From contig CM049312.1 in assembly GCA_026874595.1 (NCBI GenBank), positions 28,669,456 to 28,733,455 of the forward strand: DNA of 64,000 nucleotides, read 5' to 3'. Within the stretch, counting starts at the first letter, position 1. Each line of letters opens with the position of its first letter. The notes below the pieces were generated by a model. That model had not been told where the DNA came from and made no database searches. It was given only the letters and a program-made list of their open reading frames with translations. The DNA is from Sipunculus nudus (Eukaryota > Annelida > Sipuncula > Golfingiida > Sipunculidae). Position numbers and translations under genes: made by a program. Shown piece by piece: positions 26,737 to 40,112 of the stretch.

Positions 26737-28000
26737 ACAAGGGACCCATGAGTCACGGGGCTCAGCTGAAGTTTGAAATTTTTGCAAATGCAAAAAATGC
26801 AAAATATTCTATTGTAATGTATTTCATTTATATAAGCATATGAGAAGCTAAGAGGAAAGGGGCCCTCCTACTTGGTTATAGTTAAGTTCTAAATATATGA
26901 CTGCAAACTAATTCTCTGACTAGACTGTCATGAAGAAAATCAGTAACAGTTTTGAGATACTTTAATGCATATGAAAAATTTACAGATGGACAGGCAAGTG
27001 GACAGAATGGACTAATACCTTTGTTTCACTTTCAAGAGAATAATGCATTTAAGTTTATATATAAGCTTATTTTTTTAAAATATCCACTTTTTCCATTAGT
27101 AGTTTTATAAACTTGTAATAAAAAAATAAATGAAAATATAAGTTAAAATATTAGAATTCTAAGTTGCAATCATTATATATCCAGAGTTTTGCTCATATTG
27201 GGTCATATTATGCATACACATATATTTTATTATTTTTAAATCACAAATGTTTAAACTAAATTTAGAAGAAAATAATTCCTAAACATGGCATTTACAAGAT
27301 TATTCCTTGAATCACTATTAAAAAGTTTTGCACATTGGACTTTTAAGTACATGCTTAATTTTATTCACTGAAATGAAATAAAAGATTCAGTAAATATGAT
27401 AAAATTAAAATATCTTTTCAAATAAAGTATACACACTGTTGGTTGAATGAGGGACAAACAATATCATTGTGCTAATTACTATCTCAGCTATAATTTATTA
27501 CTGGAATTAATAGTCAATTTCACACCTGGTGAAGTTTTTACTCTTCTGAAGTAAGGAATTACTTATCTGATGAACATCCACACTTTCATATCAATACACC
27601 ACTTTGAGGACAAAAAAAAAATGTAGCAAAGCCAAGAATAAAATAAAATACAGAAAATTATAACATTCATCTAGTTAATGCACCATCCGGGTGGGGGGGG
27701 GGGGGGTGCAGGGCAGAGGGGAAGCCTGCTAGTAGTGGCCAAGCTGAGTCGAGGCAAGCTGCCTGGGGTCGGTTACATAATGCAAGTGAAGGCTGTACTA
27801 CCAGGTGGGCTAGATGTAGTCAAAGTTGGGTAAAATTTAAGGTACTGATTTTATGTTTATGCTAATAACTTGAAAAAATTTGCAAAATTCAGATCTAATT
27901 TTGGGTTAACAATTGAATCTTGATTAAATAAAGTTATATTCATGAAAAAAAGTCTCCAGCTTCAGCAGTTCTCATGTTAGGTGAGTAAATATATTTCCTG
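26737..28000 (-). mobile_element. Helentron-like element, family A, 5'-truncated copy
   Basis: On the minus strand it ends CAGCTGAGCCCCGTGAC, then the CATG-loop hairpin and CCTTGT (26737-26770). Its body is the reverse complement of the 31171-40202 element, for example AGGAGGGCCCCTTTCCTCTT and CAGCCTTCACTTGCATTATG. It carries one copy of the 1069-bp unit that is triplicated there. Similarity stops near 28000, so the 5' end is missing. A G run near 27690-27706 interrupts the match. Confidence 0.65.
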
Positions 28001-28085
28001 TTGTTAATCTGTTTGATGCTTCAGTTGAATGGGTATATACTACCATTCAGATGATAAAATTTCCTTTTACGAATCTCTTCCCAGT

Positions 28086-28117
28086 CAGCTGAGAATCATG
28101 ACCCATGGGTCACTTGT
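28086..28117 (+). mobile_element. Orphan 3' end of a family A Helentron-like element
   Basis: CAGCTGAG, hairpin TGACC-CATG-GGTCA and CACTTGT match the 3' terminus of family A, but no matching 5' end is found upstream. Confidence 0.5.
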
Positions 28118-28334
28118 TTAAGGGTGCTTTATGTTGATGAGGAATTAGTAACATTTGCTCTGAAGAATGTTACTAGATAGTTTATGGACAGGGTTTGACA
28201 ATAAGGATGTTTGACAGCCAAGTGTCGATTGACATATTATAACAGAATTGTGTGGCAGTACAAGTTTTAAAATATCCATGCATCCTCCTACCTTTGGGCA
28301 TATCAGCATTGAAAAAACTAGAACAGTATGGTAA

Positions 28335-28535
28335 CTTACTACCATAAAACCTTGCCTAAAGACCAACTTGGTGTAGTGACCACCTAAAAAAAGGACCACT
28401 CTTTCACAGTCCCAACTCTTTTTTTTTTTTTTTTGCTGCTTATATCAGACCTTGCTTATACGACCACCTTGAAAATGCAACCTCTTTATCAAGGTCCCAT
28501 GGGTGGTGGTAATACCTAGGTTTCACTGCATTAAG
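28335..28535. mobile_element. Decayed TA-type MITE fragment
   Basis: Contains GACCACC and ACGACCACC words and ends CCTAGGTTTCACTGCA. This resembles the intact MITE at 53986-54162, but the left end is degraded. Confidence 0.3.
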
Positions 28536-28539
28536 CTAT

Positions 28540-30457
28540 TGATATTTCATTATATCAAGGTAAGATCTAGAATATACATGTACACATTGTACAGGTGCAA
28601 CCCAATCATATGAATCAAATTAGATATGATATTTGTTGACAGGTGTGATGAACAGATTTTACCAGCAGCATTTGTATAGCTAAGACTGTTTTTACTCAGC
28701 ACTGGAGTCTGTGGGGGCTGGCAGATGACTTGGTGCTGTAAAAAATGCAAAGTCATCACTCTGTTATGGCTAAAAATACAAGAGGCTAATCTGATCATCC
28801 AAGCAAAGGTCACAATTACATAAGACTGAGCTTTTTCACGGTCCATTTGCTTTGGTCGGGTATAAAAAAGATTATAATTTATATTTGTTTACGTACACAC
28901 AGCCTTGATGTAGAAACTGGTAGAGAACACGGAAATATGTTGTTGTGATTTGGTCTTTACGTCATAGTTGCACACAAACACATGATTTGGTATGTGTCTC
29001 TGACGTAACAATTAACTGTTTAAGTGCTATGTTAAAACCACCCTGTAGAAAATATACTTTAAAAATTGTAATAGAATATGTGTATTACATTAGGATAATG
29101 CCATTAACAAAACTGGGGAATTTTGTATGAACTCTACCTGGGTCATATATTTGGGGCAGCAACGTGAATCTGATGTGTAGTGGCATGAAAAGTGACTGTC
29201 AGGAAATGAGCCATAATAGGGGCATTTATGGGGAGTCTTTTGCATTCTGAAATATACCATATTTTCTTTCACATATTTATATAAAAGGCAAAAATTTATT
29301 TTTTAAACTAGTTCACAGTGTTTCCAGTGGAACAGTTATAAAATATATGATTATCATGATTATCCTTACTAGCCAATCACATACCTCTTGGCACGTCATA
29401 CGTTTTCCATAGGCACATCAGCATTAGCCAGAAGGTGTCGCTACCCTGGTGGCTACATGCACTACTTTTGGTAGCAAATTTTATTTATTACAGTAAACTA
29501 AATACTGCACATTGTGAAAGGATACCTCCTATTAAATATTCATTTAGGTCCCACTGGATGTCTTCTAGCTTGGCACACATACACTTCAGATATATCAAAC
29601 AGGGGTCATGAATAGTTATACAGGTATAACACCATGAGATGTCGGTCACAGTTCACCAACAGCATGGTTGCATCACATGTTAGATCTTGGTAGAACAAAG
29701 GTGGCCCTAATACCATAATAATAACTCTCACCCTCTGCCAGGATAAACACCTGCGCACTCTCTGGAAATAAATCATTTGAACAAAAACGTATTATGGTGA
29801 ATACAAATTACCTCCAAAAAAGAATAAATTGTTTCTTCAAATAGTGTTACCCTAACTTTCCTACAAATATCATCCATATGTGTTCATAGACTGTTAACTT
29901 AAGTTACCAACAGACAAACTAACCAACCAACCAATTACAATAAAAACATGATACCTCCTTTTTGAGGTATATTTATTTATTACAATTCTCACGTTATTTC
30001 CCTCACGTTCCCCTGTCTGGGTTTCACTTATACTCACTTCAGTTGCTTACATACGCCAGCTAGTCACTGAAACATTGCCAGGTAATAAAAAATTTCCAAT
30101 CTATCTTTCACTGTAGCAATGTTTTATGTTATTTTCCATAAAGGCCAAAATAACAAATATGAAGTAGATATAGCTTTGTAAATACCTTAATTAATTTATA
30201 GTTTTGGGTAGAGCTGTACCTATATTTGTTTGTATTCATCAGCACAACAATTTAGCATGCAAACTTTATAGCCATCTGTATTGAAGAATCCTATCAATAC
30301 ATACCAGGATATTAGTAATAAGTGTATCCAGCCCTAGCAGACAGCATATTTAAAAAAAATGACTCTAGAACTTAGTAGAAGACTTGTTTTGCTGATTTGA
30401 TGTTACCCCAACGCTGATGATCTCATGACATGTACCGGTGTGGTCTTTGTTTTACAG
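28540..30457. other. PHKG intron 1, distal part
   Basis: Intronic, with no recognised repeat or coding segment up to the acceptor GTCTTTGTTTTACAG at 30457. Confidence 0.5.
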
Positions 30458-30633
30458 GGGAGTCAGTAGTGTCGTACGACGATGCATAGAAAAGGACACG
30501 GGGCGGGAGTATGCGGTGAAGATCATCGACCTGACGGGAGACAAAGACAATGAGCTTCAGACGGAAGAGCTCCGTGTGGCTACTCACAAAGAGATGAACA
30601 TCCTCAGATTATGTGCTGAGCAGCCACATATCA
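30458..30633 (+). CDS. PHKG: PHKG coding exon 2 (glycine loop to helix C)
   Basis: Encodes the last base of Arg34 through the first base of Ile93. The ATP-binding glycine loop GRGVSSVV (33-40) is the PHKG-specific form. The catalytic lysine is K55 in EYAVKII, and the helix C glutamate is E79 in THKEMNIL. The acceptor is TTTTACAG and the donor A|GTGAGT. The preceding intron is 7.2 kb. The VSSVVRRC stretch is close to diagnostic for PHKG among the calcium/calmodulin-dependent kinases. Confidence 0.95.
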
Positions 30634-31165
30634 GTGAGTACATTACTGAGTACCTTGTTTATTTGCTGTATGCGTCATATATTAATTGAAGTTTTAGGTT
30701 ACTATTGTTAACTGATGTAAATAAATAGGTACTTTAATATAAAGTGCCGGCTGTTGGGGAAGAGTGCAGATATTTAGGTTATTATCATTAATTGACCTGT
30801 GCTGGGGTAATCGACTTTGCCAGTTTGAATGGGAGGTAAAAAAGACACGCACACATATGGTTTCCCTGACTGGTATGCAAGACCCTACCAGAGAGGACTG
30901 ACAATTTAGAGTGACAAGGAATGTGATAGCAGATGCCACTGGGTTACTACAGTTGGATCAAAATTCATTTAACATGGGCTCAGTGAGTTCTTGCATGTGC
31001 CAATATCTTTTTTTTTTTTTTTTAAATTTTTTTTTTTTGGTGGAGGTAACCGCCTCCATTTTTTAATGCTGACTTATCTTATTCTTAACCTAAGTATGTA
31101 CATCTGCAGAGTTTCCATTTCGGTTTGGGACTACTTGACAGGGCGGTAGCACTCACTTCCTATCA
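30634..31165. other. PHKG intron 2, start
   Basis: Intronic. It includes two T-rich runs (31009-31040) with GGTGGAGGTAACCGCCTCCA nearby, a small inverted repeat. Nothing else was recognised. Confidence 0.4.
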
Positions 31166-32071
31166 TTTTTAGCTCAGCTGACTATAAGTCATCTGAGCTA
31201 TAGTCATGGTCCATTGTCCTTCGTCCGTCCGTCCGTCCGTCGTGCCGTCCGTCCGTCCGTCCGTCCGTCCGTCCGTCTGGATGTCTGTCCGTGAGACTGG
31301 CACGTTTCAACACCGTTGGACCTACGAATCTGAATTTCAGCATACAGTTAGATGTCCCCATAATCTCCTACCATGCCAAAAATTGGGTCAATAGGACTTC
31401 GTTCCTTTGAGATATTAAGGAAAAAGTTTAAAACCTCAATTTTTTATTAGAAATCTATTTTCACACTTCAGGACTGCCTAATATCAAAACCACTCATCTG
31501 GTTTTCTTCATATTTACCATGAATATTCCTCTTTATAGTTCCTATGTACATGCCAGATATTAAGTCAGTATTATATAATTTAAAAAAGTTATGGGCCCAA
31601 ACATAATGGACTTTGTAAAAAAATCAGGAAGATATTTGGTCACCTAAGACCAAAAGTGTTAAAGGTAGGGACTTTTTTCCAGTAATGCAACTTTAATTAA
31701 TCAAAATTTAATTGTATACAAAAAATTAGATCAAAATTTGTTAAATTTTTTTAAATATTGGCAAAAATATAAAATTGATACCTTAAATTTTGCCCAACTT
31801 AGGCCATGGCACGTTTTTTTCCTGTAAGTACTGTGGATTTAATTTTTCACACCATGTATACATAAGGATTTAATCTGTTAAAATCTGAAATTTGAAAATA
31901 AAAGCTGCAAAATTAGGCTAGTTATTGAATTTTTTTGGAGGCTCTTGTTGTATTCCCTTACATTGTCAAGCAATCCACTTTGATGACTGTAGGTCATTCA
32001 GTGCACATCTCTATGCTCCCCAGGCTGTTGACATAATTTTAGATGTCCCCAAAATCTCCTACCATACCGAA

Positions 32072-35000
32072 AATTGGGTCATTAGGACTTTGTTCCTTCG
32101 AGATATTAAGGAAAAAAACTCTGTTTTCCATAAAAAAAAGCCATTGTTACACTTCAAGGCTGCCTAATATCAAAACCACTGATCTGTTTTTGATCGTATT
32201 TAGTATTCACATTCTTTTATACATTTTCTATGAACATACCAAAATTTAGGTCAGTATTGGGTATTATTTTGAAGTTATGGGCCAAAACATAATGAAGTTT
32301 TAAAAAAAATCAGGAAATATATTTACTCACCTAACATGAGCATTGCTGAACCTAGAGACTTTTTTTCAGGAATATAACTATTTAATCAAGATTCAATTGT
32401 TTACCCAAAATTAGATCTGAATTTTGCAAATTTTTCAAGATATTAGCATAAATAAAAAATCAATACCTTAAATTTTGTCCAACTTTGGCACTGTTGATTT
32501 AATTTTCCCAGCATATATGCATAAGGATTTAATCTTTCAAAATCTGAACTTTCAAAAGAAATTGATTGGAATGAATGGCTTTTATTCATGTTTTCATACA
32601 CCATGTCAAGTGTTGTTTACATCTAGCCCACCTAGTAGTACAGCCTTCACTTGCATTATGTAACCCACCCCAGGCAGCTTGCCTTGGCCCAGCTTGGCCA
32701 CTACTAGCAGGCTTCCCCTCTGCCCTGCACTCATCCCCCCTCCCCCAGCTGGTGCATAAACTAGATGAATGTTATAATTTTTCTGTATTTTATTTTATTC
32801 TTGGACATGCAACATTTTAGATTTTGTATTGAACCACCAGGGTTACAATGATTAAAGTGTACATTTAATTGTGTCCACAAAGTGGTGTATTGCTGTGAAA
32901 GTGTGGATGTTCATGAGATAAGTAATTCCTTACTTCAGAAGAGTAAAACCTTCACCAGGTGTAAAATTGACTATTAATTCCAGTACTTAATTAAAACTGG
33001 GATAGTAATTAGCACAATGATATTGTTTGTCCCTCATTCAACCAACAGTGTGTATCCTTTATTTGAAAAGATGTTTTATTTTATCAAATTTACTTTTTAT
33101 TTTATTTTGGTGAATAAAATTAAGCATGTCCTGAAAAGTCCATTGGGTCATTAGGACTTTGTTCCTTCGAGATATTAAGGAAAAAAACTCCGTTTTCCAT
33201 AAAAAAAAGCCATTGTTACACTTCAAGGCTGCCTAATATCAAAACCACTGATCTGTTTTTGATCGTATTTAGTATTCACATTCTTTTATACATTTTCTAT
33301 GAACATACCAATATTTAGGTCAGTATTGGGTATTATTTTGAAGTTATGGGCCAAAACATAATGAAGTTTTTAAAAAAATCAGGAAATATATTTACTCACC
33401 TAACATGAGCATTGCTGAACCTAGAGACTTTTTTTCAGGAATATAACTATTTAATCAAGATTCAATTGTTTACCCAAAATTAGATCTGAATTTTGCAAAT
33501 TTTTCAAGATATTAGCATAAATAAAAAATCAATACCTTAAATTTTGTCCAACTTTGGCACTGTTGATTTAATTTTCCCAGCATATATGCATAAGGATTTA
33601 ATCTTTCAAAATCTGAACTTTCAAAAGAAATTGATTGGAATGAATGGCTTTTATTCATGTTTTCATACACCATGTCAAGTGTTGTTTACATCTAGCCCAC
33701 CTAGTAGTACAGCCTTCACTTGCATTATGTAACCCACCCCAGGCAGCTTGCCTTGGCCCAGCTTGGCCACTACTAGCAGGCTTCCCCTCTGCCCTGCACT
33801 CATCCCCCCTCCCCCAGCTGGTGCATAAACTAGATGAATGTTATAATTTTTCTGTATTTTATTTTATTCTTGGACATGCAACATTTTAGATTTTGTATTG
33901 AACCACCAGGGTTACAATGATTAAAGTGTACATTTAATTGTGTCCACAAAGTGGTGTATTGCTGTGAAAGTGTGGATGTTCATGAGATAAGTAATTCCTT
34001 ACTTCAGAAGAGTAAAACCTTCACCAGGTGTAAAATTGACTATTAATTCCAGTACTTAATTAAAACTGGGATAGTAATTAGCACAATGATATTGTTTGTC
34101 CCTCATTCAACCAACAGTGTGTATCCTTTATTTGAAAAGATGTTTTATTTTATCAAATTTACTTTTTATTTTATTTTGGTGAATAAAATTAAGCATGTCC
34201 TGAAAAGTCCATTGGGTCATTAGGACTTTGTTCCTTCGAGATATTAAGGAAAAAAACTCCGTTTTCCATAAAAAAAAGCCATTGTTACACTTCAAGGCTG
34301 CCTAATATCAAAACCACTGATCTGTTTTTGATCGTATTTAGTATTCACATTCTTTTATACATTTTCTATGAACATACCAATATTTAGGTCAGTATTGGGT
34401 ATTATTTTGAAGTTATGGGCCAAAACATAATGAAGTTTTAAAAAAAATCAGGAAATATATTTACTCACCTAACATGAGCATTGCTGAACCTAGAGACTTT
34501 TTTTTCAGGAATATAACTATTTAATCAAGATTCAATTGTTTACCCAAAATTAGATCTGAATTTTGCAAATTTTTCAAGATATTAGCATAAATAAAAAATC
34601 AATACCTTAAATTTTGTCCAACTTTGGCACTGTTGATTTAATTTTCCCAGCATATATGCATAAGGATTTAATCTTTCAAAATCTGAACTTTCAAAAGAAA
34701 TTGATTGGAATGAATGGCTTTTATTCATGTTTTCATACACCATGTCAAGTGTTGTTTACATCTAGCCCACCTAGTAGTACAGCCTTCACTTGCATTATGT
34801 AACCCACCCCAGGCAGCTTGCCTTGGCCCAGCTTGGCCACTACTAGCAGGCTTCCCCTCTGCCCTGCACTCATCCCCCCTCCCCCAGCTGGTGCATAAAC
34901 TAGATGAATGTTATAATTTTTCTGTATTTTATTTTATTCTTGGACATGCAACATTTTAGATTTTGTATTGAACCACCAGGGTTACAATGATTAAAGTGTA

Positions 35001-35280
35001 CATTTAATTGTGTCCACAAAGTGGTGTATTGCTGTGAAAGTGTGGATGTTCATGAGATAAGTAATTCCTTACTTCAGAAGAGTAAAACCTTCACCAGGTG
35101 TAAAATTGACTATTAATTCCAGTACTTAATTAAAACTGGGATAGTAATTAGCGCAATGATATTGTTTGTCCCTCATTCAACCAACAGTGTGTATCCTTTA
35201 TTTGAAAAGATGTTTTATTTTATCAAATTTACTTTTTATTTTATTTTGGTGAATAAAATTAAGCATGTCCTGAAAAGTCC
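32072..35280. repeat. Near-identical 1069-bp tandem triplication
   Basis: Three copies occupy about 32072-33140, 33141-34210 and 34211-35280. Each starts ATTGGGTCATTAGGACTTTG and ends GCATGTCCTGAAAAGTCC. Only scattered single-base differences are visible. An older diverged start of the same unit lies at 31375-31480. Only one unit is present in the related copy at 26737-28000. The repeated short open frames are not genes. Confidence 0.95.
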
Positions 35281-36316
35281 AATGTGCAAAACTTTTTAAT
35301 AGTGATTCAAGGAATATTCTTGTAGATGCCAATATTGTGGCATTATTTTCTTTTAAAATCAGTTAAACATTTATGATTAAAAAATAATAAAATATATGTG
35401 TATGCATAATATGACCCAATGTTTTTTACTCTGTATATATAATGATTGCAACTTTTGCAACAATTCTAATATTTTAACTTATATTTTCTGGTTTTTTAAA
35501 ATAGGCTTATATATAAACTTAAATGCATTATTCTCTTGAAAGTGAAATAAAGGTATTAGTCCATTCTGTCCACTTGCCTGTCCATCTGTGAATTTTCGTA
35601 TGCAACACAGTATCTCAAAACTTTTACTGTTTTTCTTCATGACAGTCTTGTCAGAGTATTAGTTTGCAATCATATATTTAGAACTTTACTATAACCAAGT
35701 AGGAGGGCCCCTTTCCTCTTAGCTTTTCATATTCTTATATAAATGAAAAACATTACAATAGAATATTTCTACATCCACCTTCATGCTGCCCTCACTTTTC
35801 CCTTCTCCGAACCCCATCCCAAAGTCAGCCTCAGTAAGCAAGAACAAGATGAATCAGATATATTCATACTTTAATATTTTGTATAACTATTCGTCCATAG
35901 GTACCTATGTACATGCCAGAAATTATGTCAATATTGTGTAATATGTAGACATAGTGGGCATCACAATAATGTACCTTTTCAAGACTAAAGAGATATTGTG
36001 TCATACAGTCACATAGTCATAAATCACTTCATCTGCATAGTTAATCATAACATCATATCTGTCAAATTGAACACTTGCAGACTACCATACACTTTAGACC
36101 CTGCAACAAATAGCCTTATCATCATTCTACTACTGCTTATTACTGCTGTCATTGCATTCATATTTGCTCAAATATATCACAATTTTCAACCCCTCCTAAA
36201 TAAATAAAAAATAAACCACTTTATTTGACTCTATTAATCCATCAGTCAGGTAATTTCATTTATCATTTACTCACATATTACATTACATTCCTTTATAATA
36301 GCCCAACATATACATG

Positions 36317-36324
36317 ATATTCAT
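36317..36324. repeat. Target-site duplication, left copy
   Basis: ATATTCAT directly abuts the left terminal inverted repeat and is identical to 40105-40112. Confidence 0.8.
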
Positions 36325-37413
36325 GGTAATCGTGCAATATAACGGACCCATATTTCATGGTCTCACAAAAAAGTGTGACCACATTTCAATGAAAAAACTG
36401 TTTCATGTAAAAGTTGAAGATCCGGCGCATCTAATGATACAATATTTTTGTATGTTTGATATAAATATATTTTGCTACAAACTGTCGAAAAAGGGTAGTT
36501 TGCTGAAAATACCAAAAATGACGTCGTGTCAAAGACGTTCTCAGCCGACGTCATGAATCCACAGTACTGTACATGCATACCATGTTAAACAAAAGGATGA
36601 TGTCTAACAAAAATTACAGTCAATATATCTTTTTATGCATAGATAGAGAGACAATTTTACCTCTAAATATCCATATTTCCCAAGATTTAATAAAAGTTGA
36701 CGACGTCGTGCCGCCAAATACGTAAACATGCAACTGTCGTCTGTGAATGTATTCGACTGATCACGTTAACTCTTGCTTTATTCAGCTTTGTCTCTATGTA
36801 CGTTTTATATGTCAAATAAATATAAATTGTGTAATAAACAGTCATTTTTGTGGACAGTGTATAAAGACTACTTTTTAGACATGTCATTTATCTTATTTAT
36901 TTTTTTTGTCCTGTTAGACTACTTTATGTAAGGACAATCAGATGGGAACTTCCCCTCCCCATGAGTAACAGACTGGTAGCCCTTAAAATCGAGACGAAAG
37001 CGGGAGAAACACGGGACCATGTTGGGCGTATCATCCATATGTGACCACATTTTATAATATTATGTATATAATACAAACTTATATGGCTGGTCAAATAAAA
37101 TGTGGTCACACCTTATTTTTGTTAATATTTATTGGTAATAAATGTGGTCACGCCATATGTGACCATATTTTACAATATTATATATATAATACAAACATAT
37201 ATGGCTGTTCAAATAAAATGTGGTCACACCTTTATTTTTGTCAACATTTATTGTAAAAAATGTGGTCACACCATATGTGACCACATTCTAAAATATTATA
37301 TATTTATTACAAACTTATATGGCTTGTCAAATAAAATGTGGTCACACCTTATTTTTGTTAATATTTATTGAAAAAAATGTGGTCACACCATGTGACCACA
37401 TTTTATAATATAT

Positions 37414-37506
<93 letters not shown>

Positions 37507-37605
37507 CAAACTTATATGGCTGGTCAAATAAAATATGGTCAAACCTTATTTTTGTTAATATTAATTGGTAATAAATGTGGTCACACTATGTGACCACATT
37601 TTATA

Positions 37606-37673
<68 letters not shown>

Positions 37674-37778
37674 CAAACTTATATGACTGGTCAAATAAAA
37701 TATGGTCAAACCTTATTTTTGTTAATATTAATTGGTTATAAATGTGGTCACACCATGTGACCACATTTTATAATATAT

Positions 37779-37845
<67 letters not shown>

Positions 37846-38298
37846 CAAACTTATATGACTGGTCAAATAAAATATGGTCACACCTTATTTTTGTTAATAT
37901 TTATTGGTAATAAATGTGGTCACGCCATATGTGACCATATTTTATTATATTATATATATAATACAAACATCTATGGCTGTTCAAATCAAATGTGGTCACA
38001 CCTTATTTTTGTCAATATTTATTGTAAAAAATGTGGTCACACCATATGTGACCACATTCTAAAATATTATATATTTATTACAAACTTATATGGCTTGTCA
38101 AATAAAATGTGGTCACACCTTATTTTTGTTAATATTTATTGTAAAAAATGTGGTCACACCTTGTGACCATATTTTTTAATATATATATATATATAATACA
38201 AACTTATATGGCTAGTCAAATAAAATATGGTCACACCTTATTTTTGTTAATATTTATTGGTAATAAATGTGGTCACACCATGTGACCACATTTTATAA

Positions 38299-38329
<31 letters not shown>

Positions 38330-38908
38330 ATACAAACTTATATGGCTGGTCAAAGTGTTAAAATATGGTCACACCTTATTTTTGTTAATATTTATTGGTA
38401 ATAAATGTGGTCACGCCAAATGTGACCATATTTTATAATATTATATATATAATACAAACATATATGGCAGTTCAAATAAAATGTGGTCACACCTTATTTT
38501 TGTCAATATTTATTTTAAAAATGTGGTCACATCATATGTGACCACATTCTAAAAATTACATATATAATACAAACTTATATGGCTTGTTAAATAAAATGTG
38601 GTCATACCTTATTTTTGAAAATAATTATTGGTAAAAAATGTGGTCACACCTTATGTGACCACATTTTATAATATTCTATATATAATACAAACTTATATGG
38701 CTGGTCAAATAAAATGTTGTCACACCTTATTTTTGTCAATATTTATTGTGAAAAATGCGGTCACACCATATGTGACAACATTTTATAATATTCTATATAT
38801 AATACAAACTTATATGGCTGGTCAAATAAAATGTGGTCACACCTTATTTTTGTCAATATTTATTGTGAAAAATGTGTTCACACTATGTGACCACATTTTA
38901 TAATATAT

Positions 38909-38961
<53 letters not shown>

Positions 38962-40104
38962 CAAACTTATATGGCTTGTCAAATAAAATGTGGTCACACC
39001 TTATTTTTGTTAATATTTATTGTTAAAAAATGTGGTCACACTGATGTGACCACATTTTATAATATTCTATTTATGATACAAACTTATATGGCTGGTCAAA
39101 TAAAATGTGGTCACACCTTAGTTTGTCAATATTTATTTTTAAAATGTGGTCACACCATATGTGACCACATTTTATAATATTCTATATATAATACAAACTT
39201 ATATGGCTGGTCAAATAAAATGTGGTCACAACTTATTTTTTTATTGGTAAAAAATATGGTCACACTTATGTGACCACATTTTATAATATTCTATTTATAA
39301 TACAAACTAATATGGCTGGTCAAATAAAATGTGGTCACAACTTATTTTTTTATTGGTAAAAAATATGGTCTCTTGGTTTGAAAAAAATTCAGGTTTAAAT
39401 TTAGAAAAAAATAAGGGATATGATGATGTAAGAATATATTTAAATGTGGTCACAACACCTTTTTTTACTATTTCTAACTACTATATGTGGTCACACAATT
39501 TATACAAAAGAGATCACACCTTAATAATGTCATTCATTATAACTAATAAATGTTGTCACACTTAATAATTATTTTATTAAAATTAAGGATATTATTATGT
39601 TAGTATAACAAAAAATGTTGTAACATTATGCGGACGAACGTGTTTCTCACGTGTCTCTCTTGATTTTAAGTGCATGACTTGTCACGTGACACTGGACATT
39701 TGTTTACGTTCTGGCGGCAGGGCGTCGTCACCTTGAACGTACATCAAGTGAAATGTGGATAAAAAGAGGTAAAAAAGTATAAACATATATGGGTTATATT
39801 ATATATTGACTGTAAATTTTATAAGACATCATCTAAATGTATAACATGGTATATATGTATATTACTATGGATTCATGACGTCGGCTCAGAACGTCTATGA
39901 CACGACGTCATTTTGGGTATTTTCGGCAAACTACCCTTTTTCGACAGTTTGTAGCAAAATAAATATATAAATAACATACAAAAATATGATATCATTAGAT
40001 GCGCCGGATCGTCAACTTTATCATGCAAAAAAAATTTTAGTGAAATGTGGTCACACTTATTTGTGAGAGAGAGTAACATGGGTCCGTTATATTGCACGAT
40101 TACC
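36325..40104. mobile_element. 3.78-kb element with 406-bp terminal inverted repeats and internal satellite
   Basis: Terminal inverted repeats lie at 36325-36730 and 39698-40104. They begin GGTAATCGTGCAATATAACG and match closely, with small gaps, to a conserved GCCGCCA...CGTAAACA segment. The 8-bp direct duplication ATATTCAT sits immediately outside both ends (36317-36324 and 40105-40112). Long terminal repeats, GG termini and an 8-bp duplication fit Mutator-like or foldback elements; hAT-type and other 8-bp classes are not excluded. There is no transposase, so it is non-autonomous. Multiple GACGTC or GACGT sites lie in each repeat. It is nested in the family A element. Confidence 0.8.
37038..39360. 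repeat. 18-copy satellite with a TGTGGTCACA palindrome in each unit
   Basis: ACAAACTTATATGGCTGGTC or a close variant occurs 18 times. Unit length is about 115-130 bp, except where an internal (TA)n run is long (37421-37503, 37610-37670, 37784-37842). Each unit carries AAATGTGGTCACACC and, after a few bases, ATGTGACCACATTT, which together form a hairpin, then TTATTTTTGTTAATATTTATTG. It lies wholly between the two terminal inverted repeats. Confidence 0.95.
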
Positions 40105-40112
40105 ATATTCAT
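40105..40112. repeat. Target-site duplication, right copy
   Basis: ATATTCAT directly abuts the right terminal inverted repeat and is identical to 36317-36324. Confidence 0.8.

Follow-up and report, generated by a model that had tools for sequence, protein, structure and literature searches.

A satellite-bearing, probably non-autonomous DNA transposon family with long inverted arms and 8-bp target duplications

The element described here is very probably a non-autonomous cut-and-paste DNA transposon that carries a satellite as an integral part and is mobilised in trans, the array having already been present in the master element. It occupies positions 36325-40104 of the window (the whole stretch of 64,000 nucleotides that was analysed, situated on contig C7), spans 3,780 bp between two exact copies of ATATTCAT, and belongs to a family of about a hundred copies or more. 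The satellite varies in length from copy to copy and travels with the element.

The organisation of the window copy is given in Table 1. Both copies of ATATTCAT directly abut GGTAATCG...CGATTACC, and the element ends read GGTAATCGTGCA...TGCACGATTACC. The identical flanking duplication reported in a preliminary description of this DNA was confirmed, with coordinates correct to the base. The long inverted repeats claimed there were also present, at a length of about 404 bp rather than 406 bp, since the larger figure had counted the 8-bp duplication, and the two arms align at 82% identity. The 18-copy satellite filling was recovered with a loose anchor motif (18 units, with spacings of 109-197 bp), a stricter anchor giving 16 units, and the longer units were found to contain AT microsatellites. 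Alignment of the left inner region with the inner right arm gave a score of 44, which was also the best score of 200 shuffles, and homology of the left and right inner regions is only suggestive. As had been described, the window element contains no transposase open reading frame, its longest stop-to-stop frame being 130 aa. Elsewhere in the window (26802-35768) there is a separate repeat of about 1.07 kb, which is repeated several times in tandem at about 32.3-35.8 kb and occurs once in inverted orientation at 26.8-28.0 kb.

Table 1. Features of the satellite-bearing element, in window positions.
Feature	Position	Strand	Basis or remark
Left target-site duplication ATATTCAT	36317..36324	.	Identical to right copy; abuts element end exactly
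Left terminal inverted repeat, tip GGTAATCGTGCAATATAACGGACCC	36325..36728	+	Arm alignment
Subterminal motif TGTGACCACA, position 50-59 from left tip	36374..36383	-	Motif search
Left inner region, 306 bp, beyond clear inverted repeat	36729..37034	+	
Satellite array of 18 anchored units (about 117 bp each), AT microsatellites interspersed	37035..39380	+	
AT microsatellite inside array	37404..37504	.	
Further AT microsatellites in array	37609-37670, 37769-37842, 38294-38329, 38899-38958		
Right inner region	39381..39700	-	In other copies, 39620-39700 is conserved together with right arm
Right terminal inverted repeat, 82% identical to left	39701..40104	-	Arm alignment
Subterminal motif TGTGGTCACA, position 50-59 from right tip	40046..40055	+	Motif search
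Right target-site duplication ATATTCAT	40105..40112	.	Identical to left copy

Separate parts of the element were used to search the genome (1.43 Gb in 153 contigs). The left and right arms each gave 40 scored matches at 97-100% identity, out of 391 and 397 candidates respectively, and the left inner region gave 172 candidates, of which 40 were scored. With at most one mismatch allowed, the 21-bp tip matched 217 times genome-wide (106 forward, 111 reverse) while the reversed control pattern matched 0 times, showing that the ends of the window copy recur as fixed inverted tips on many contigs. Among the 100 exact tips listed, all 31 pairs of neighbouring tips less than 20 kb apart faced inwards and none was arranged otherwise. 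A set of 156 tips, made up of these 100 together with matches from the arm searches and from a variant tip, gave 53 facing pairs, whose median length was 3.7 kb. One of the 53 (12.4 kb, on C4) does not represent a single element, and insertions may be present in other long pairs.

Both ends could be read in 23 copies, namely the window copy, L009-L026 (18 copies), L028, L029, L035 and L036; L027, with its right end out of range, was not counted. An exact target duplication was found in 22 of these 23 copies, and in all 22 it was exactly 8 bp long. The exception, L029 (C14:39849950-39859920), lacks a matching 8-bp duplication though both of its tips are present. GG...CC was found at both ends in 21 of the 23 copies, with a one-base difference in L020 (left) and in L023 (right). 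L026 carries a variant-type right tip with its own exact 8-bp duplication, and a DNA search with this variant tip returned L026 itself together with places 89-91% alike, several of which are known right ends. Target preference was weak, with T at position 3 in 13 of the 22 duplications. The joined flanks of 20 insertions were compared with the retrieved genomic sequence for traces of empty sites, and one insertion, L012, which lies in a tandem repeat, was informative and provided one clean empty site. When joined with a single AAAATCAT, the L012 flanks align through the junction with neighbouring tandem copies: one, at 85%, has AAAATCAT itself, and another, at 89%, is one base off there. A stretch of the window also matches the joined flanks, at 78%. 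As the neighbouring tandem copies run through the junction, the L012 insertion was precise. The fixed tips, the recurring duplications and this empty site support the earlier proposal of an intact DNA transposon with long terminal inverted repeats, which withstood the refuting tests set out with it.

Divergence from the consensus averages 1.1% (maximum 2.0%) among the 20 left arms and is 0.4-2.5% for the right arms in 18 of 19 copies (L026 excluded from the alignment), the right arm of L013 having been mostly lost through an internal deletion. Aligned over their full length, the left arm differs from the right by about 18%. The left-arm divergence of about 1% from consensus indicates that the spread was recent. 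The family thus expanded recently out of a single lineage whose two arms were distinct, and no process is making the left and right arms alike.

The satellite was present in all 20 elements measured, a set from which L027, L029, L035 and L036 were excluded, and comprised 6-35 units, or 6-37 with a looser anchor. In a two-monomer search, 39 of the 40 satellite loci scored out of 246 candidates, the window's included, had a known tip no more than 7.5 kb away; the single locus among these 40 with none nearby is C12:25804705. Monomers were compared using those 192 of the 262 units from the 20 copies whose length, once AT runs had been shortened, was 90-135 bp. Divergence was 0.089 within copies and 0.092 between copies, and between-copy divergence at given places in the array was 0.059 for first units and 0.070 for last units. 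For 39 of the 192 monomers the nearest neighbour came from the same copy, the expected value being 0.059. This equality of divergence within and between copies, with the first and last monomers most alike across copies, indicates that the array predates the spread and has been inherited, while the excess of same-copy nearest neighbours over chance points to some ongoing local duplication. Thus, of the earlier suggestion that the element carries or generates satellite DNA, it is mainly the carrying that holds: mean monomer divergence gives no sign of generation at each site, beyond some local duplication.

A 10-bp motif, TGTGGTCACA/TGTGACCACA, is common to the arms and the monomers. The window element contains 39 exact copies of it, against a mean of 0.005 and a maximum of 1 in 200 first-order simulated sequences, and 56 copies with at most one mismatch, the corresponding numbers for the rest of the window (60 kb) being 0 and 18. 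Between 23 and 98 exact copies were found per element in the 20 copies. Counted from the tip, the exact motif stands at position 50 in 18 of the 20 left arms and in 17 of the 20 right ones, and also in L026 once its end is corrected; in L010 it stands at position 52. In the window copy, the motif block is identical between the two diverged arms, bar one base beside the motif. The monomer consensus holds the motif three times, one of them inverted, and matches right-arm positions 40-62 with 22 of 24 bases identical. Within the monomer the motif varies less than the rest (0.029 versus 0.069), and the most conserved stretch is not the motif but the unrelated ACAAACTTAT, which varies 0.017. By analogy with Galileo and Tetris, the motif could be envisaged as a transposase-binding site, and the monomer may have arisen by duplication of the piece of arm around the motif site. 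The satellite may then act as a store of extra putative transposase-binding sites. The fuller proposal that the satellite is the amplified putative transposase-binding site of a Merlin-driven element, with an inherited array and a recent spread due to the extra sites, seems to us rather doubtful; if true, the satellite would have been selected at the level of the transposon.

Other accounts of the same structure were considered against that of a transposon with an inherited array. A satellite array lying between the parts of an inverted segmental duplication, rather than a transposon, is barely conceivable, being suggested by nothing but the local anatomy and refuted by the recurrent exact duplications, the fixed tips on many contigs and the empty site. 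We also consider it very unlikely that a new satellite is built by the element every time it inserts, the arrays being local products of its structure. Such a process would be in keeping with the variable unit number and with the surplus of nearest-neighbour monomers in the same copy; however, the mean divergence is equal within and between copies and the first and last monomers are the most alike across copies, as expected of an inherited array, and every measured element carries one. A third possibility is that an ordinary genomic satellite was captured by the ancestor of the family and that its likeness to the arm is coincidental. While 39 of the 40 scored satellite loci adjoin a tip, and the three motif copies in the monomer, one inverted, match a single site placed symmetrically in both arms, the stretch common to arm and monomer is short, at 24 bp, and one scored locus has no known tip nearby; on balance, such a capture is unlikely.

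The arms of MULEs are usually long and imperfect, and Mutator duplications are of 8-10 bp, mostly 9 bp. The label 'Mutator-like', which had been suggested for the element, is not established, since Merlin agrees at least as well with the GG tips and with duplications of strictly 8 bp, and no transposase could be tied to the ends. Merlin elements are described in the cited part of one report as having GG tips, duplications of 8-9 bp and arms of 24-462 bp, some with internal tandem repeats (PMC8101967), and the element displays terminal GG, an 8-bp duplication and arms of about 404 bp. On tips, duplications and arm length, Merlin fits somewhat better than Mutator, and we would give Merlin roughly an even chance of having supplied the transposase, Mutator a clearly lower one and other superfamilies a lower one still. 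A Mutator (MULE) transposase as the mobilising enzyme, which would place the element in that superfamily as a MITE or Tetris-like foldback, is less likely. MULE domains are plentiful in the genome (131 matches), the arms of one MULE locus (L037), about 250 bp long, match at 86%, and Tetris, with duplications of 8-10 bp, was assigned to Mutator by its authors in the passages cited (PMC4079207). According to the cited portion of a mollusc survey, Merlin is rare and MULEs are commoner in bivalves (PMC10294476), which counts against Merlin only if the host is a bivalve. Against a MULE enzyme, all 22 duplications of the family are exactly 8 bp, compared with a weak 9-bp call at the MULE locus L038, and none of the 131 MULE matches lies within 12 kb of the 156 listed tips.

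Comparison of the 131 MULE matches with the 156 listed tips likewise placed no MULE transposase inside the element pairs. Merlin (IS1595-type) domains gave 150 scored matches in the genome, of which the 110 off the small contigs were compared with the tips, the 40 left out all being on small contigs C101-C138. No Merlin transposase was found inside the element pairs among these 110 matches and 156 tips, the nearest being a fragment 7.9 kb outside. The four Merlin loci that were read (L030-L033) have GG tips and exact 8-bp repeats, both of which the scan demanded (GG...CC and an 8-bp repeat), and the ends of L030, L032 and L033 fall within 4 bases of inverted repeats detected independently of the scan condition. 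In all four, the tips continue CGACT or CAAACT and differ from the tip of the element. The MULE loci read (L034, L037, L038 and L039) showed no match to the element ends; two of these four gave no ends, and at L038 ends could be called only weakly, with 11 of 16 tip bases matching and a duplication of 9 bp. An 8-bp match at L037 was rejected as a duplication and given no weight, its 8-mer being a palindrome inside the inverted arms that repeats by construction.

No frame longer than 187 aa was present in the 20 elements measured, and several larger candidates for an autonomous partner were rejected among the long copies that were read; two other long facing pairs span 9.1 kb (C5:63656917-63666013) and 7.2 kb (C9:1641146-1648351). 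L022 (6.6 kb) owes its length to two other nested repeats, the long frames of L029 (9.8 kb) belong to a nested Ty3/gypsy-type element, L035 (7.9 kb) contains an insertion with a Merlin-like tip, and the 12.4-kb 'pair' on C4 has another left end within, as revealed by L036. L027 has non-satellite stretches with no frame longer than 120 aa, and a family of MULEs with a 607-aa frame was set aside as a partner when the copy read (L034) failed to match the element ends. Because no transposase-bearing relative was found, mobilisation in trans and the superfamily are only inferred. Of the nested sequences, the one at element positions 985-3197 of L022 is an independent element that has long inverted ends (TGTCAGAGACGAGATTGAAATC...) and is rich in GCCTAGGCGAG-type repeats, and the Ty3/gypsy-type element in L029 has 1.1-kb direct repeats that are 99.7% identical.

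In the mechanism that we favour for this satellite-bearing transposon, a DDE transposase made elsewhere would bind the arms, perhaps through the TGTGGTCACA site that lies 50 bp in from either tip, and the element would be excised with whatever array was present and then inserted at 8-bp staggered cuts. A master element already bearing the array would have spread recently in this way, and the arrays would afterwards have been lengthened or shortened via slippage or unequal exchange.

Helitrons and Helentrons are not known to have target-site duplications or long terminal inverted repeats, whereas 8-bp duplications and 400-bp arms are present here. A foldback element has long arms made partly of tandem repeats round a middle domain; here the arms are single-copy and the tandem repeats sit between them rather than inside them, and the term 'foldback', also used in the preliminary description, fits in outline only. 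Galileo of Drosophila differs from our element in belonging to the P superfamily, with a THAP transposase, and its duplications are 7 bp. The account of Galileo in the cited pages describes internal tandem repeats with extra transposase-binding sites for which binding is reported, while the sites here are putative (PMC4079207). Tetris of Drosophila virilis, in the same pages, is like our element in being non-autonomous, with long arms, a variable unit number and no autonomous partner found, and its tandem repeat has 37 bp in common with the outer arm, much as the monomer and arm share a stretch here (PMC4079207). In contrast, as far as that account goes, Tetris has repeats inside its arms rather than between them, duplications of 8-10 bp rather than 8 bp in all 22 cases, and three structurally complete copies where our family has about a hundred or more. 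The Tetris repeats are also found in longer satellite arrays, whereas a free array was confirmed nowhere among the 40 loci scored here, one of which was unread (PMC4079207).

Imperfect arms and internal tandem repeats, as seen here, are on record for Merlin in the portion of the report cited, though the tips of the four Merlins from this genome differ (PMC8101967). The pearl, CvA and DTC84 elements of bivalves resemble ours in being non-autonomous with a satellite-like repeat core, which in the cited descriptions adjoins a palindrome or microsatellite-like segment (PMC5139131, PMC9659126, PMC11136912); DTC84 is described there as pearl-related. One of these papers, in the relevant part, cites CvA, CvE and CvG as examples of Helitrons/Helentrons (PMC11136912), whereas our element has cut-and-paste tips and 8-bp duplications. 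Internal tandem repeats are likewise described, in the cited part of PMC9659126, for the Xenopus MITEs Xmix/Xstir and for miDNA4, the last a Tc1-mariner element, and a Lucina MITE paper, in the part cited, describes a short element with no detected duplication (PMC4732748). A search of the literature by title, with Repbase and Dfam outside it, returned no title describing the family of our element. We class it as a new family of an already known kind, satellite-bearing transposons being known in bivalves, Drosophila and Xenopus and tandem repeats being on record within Merlin elements.

The family shows clearly a satellite that a cut-and-paste transposon has carried to many contigs of chromosome size. 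Its young copies with their exact ends, together with an empty site, allow the order of events to be read, the array having come first and the spread later, and the motif common to arms and monomers provides a testable claim on why transposons build satellites.

Some further observations concern other transposase loci of the genome. The Merlin locus L031 (C15:1993800-1998800) has two nested pairs of Merlin-like ends, each with its own 8-bp repeat. Many of the 40 out of 150 IS1595-type matches that lie on small contigs C101-C138 are near-identical with intact frames, like bacterial contigs, and C101-C138 perhaps derive from a symbiont or contaminant. At L034 (C7:29981200-29987200), a MULE transposase with a FLYWCH domain is encoded in a 607-aa open frame, which recurs in 43 of the 131 MULE matches with near-identical scores across chromosomes. 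In the 6 kb examined, the L034 transposase sits between a C-type-lectin frame and an unassigned 330-aa frame and no inverted ends were found, and L034 is possibly a larger, recently spread element.
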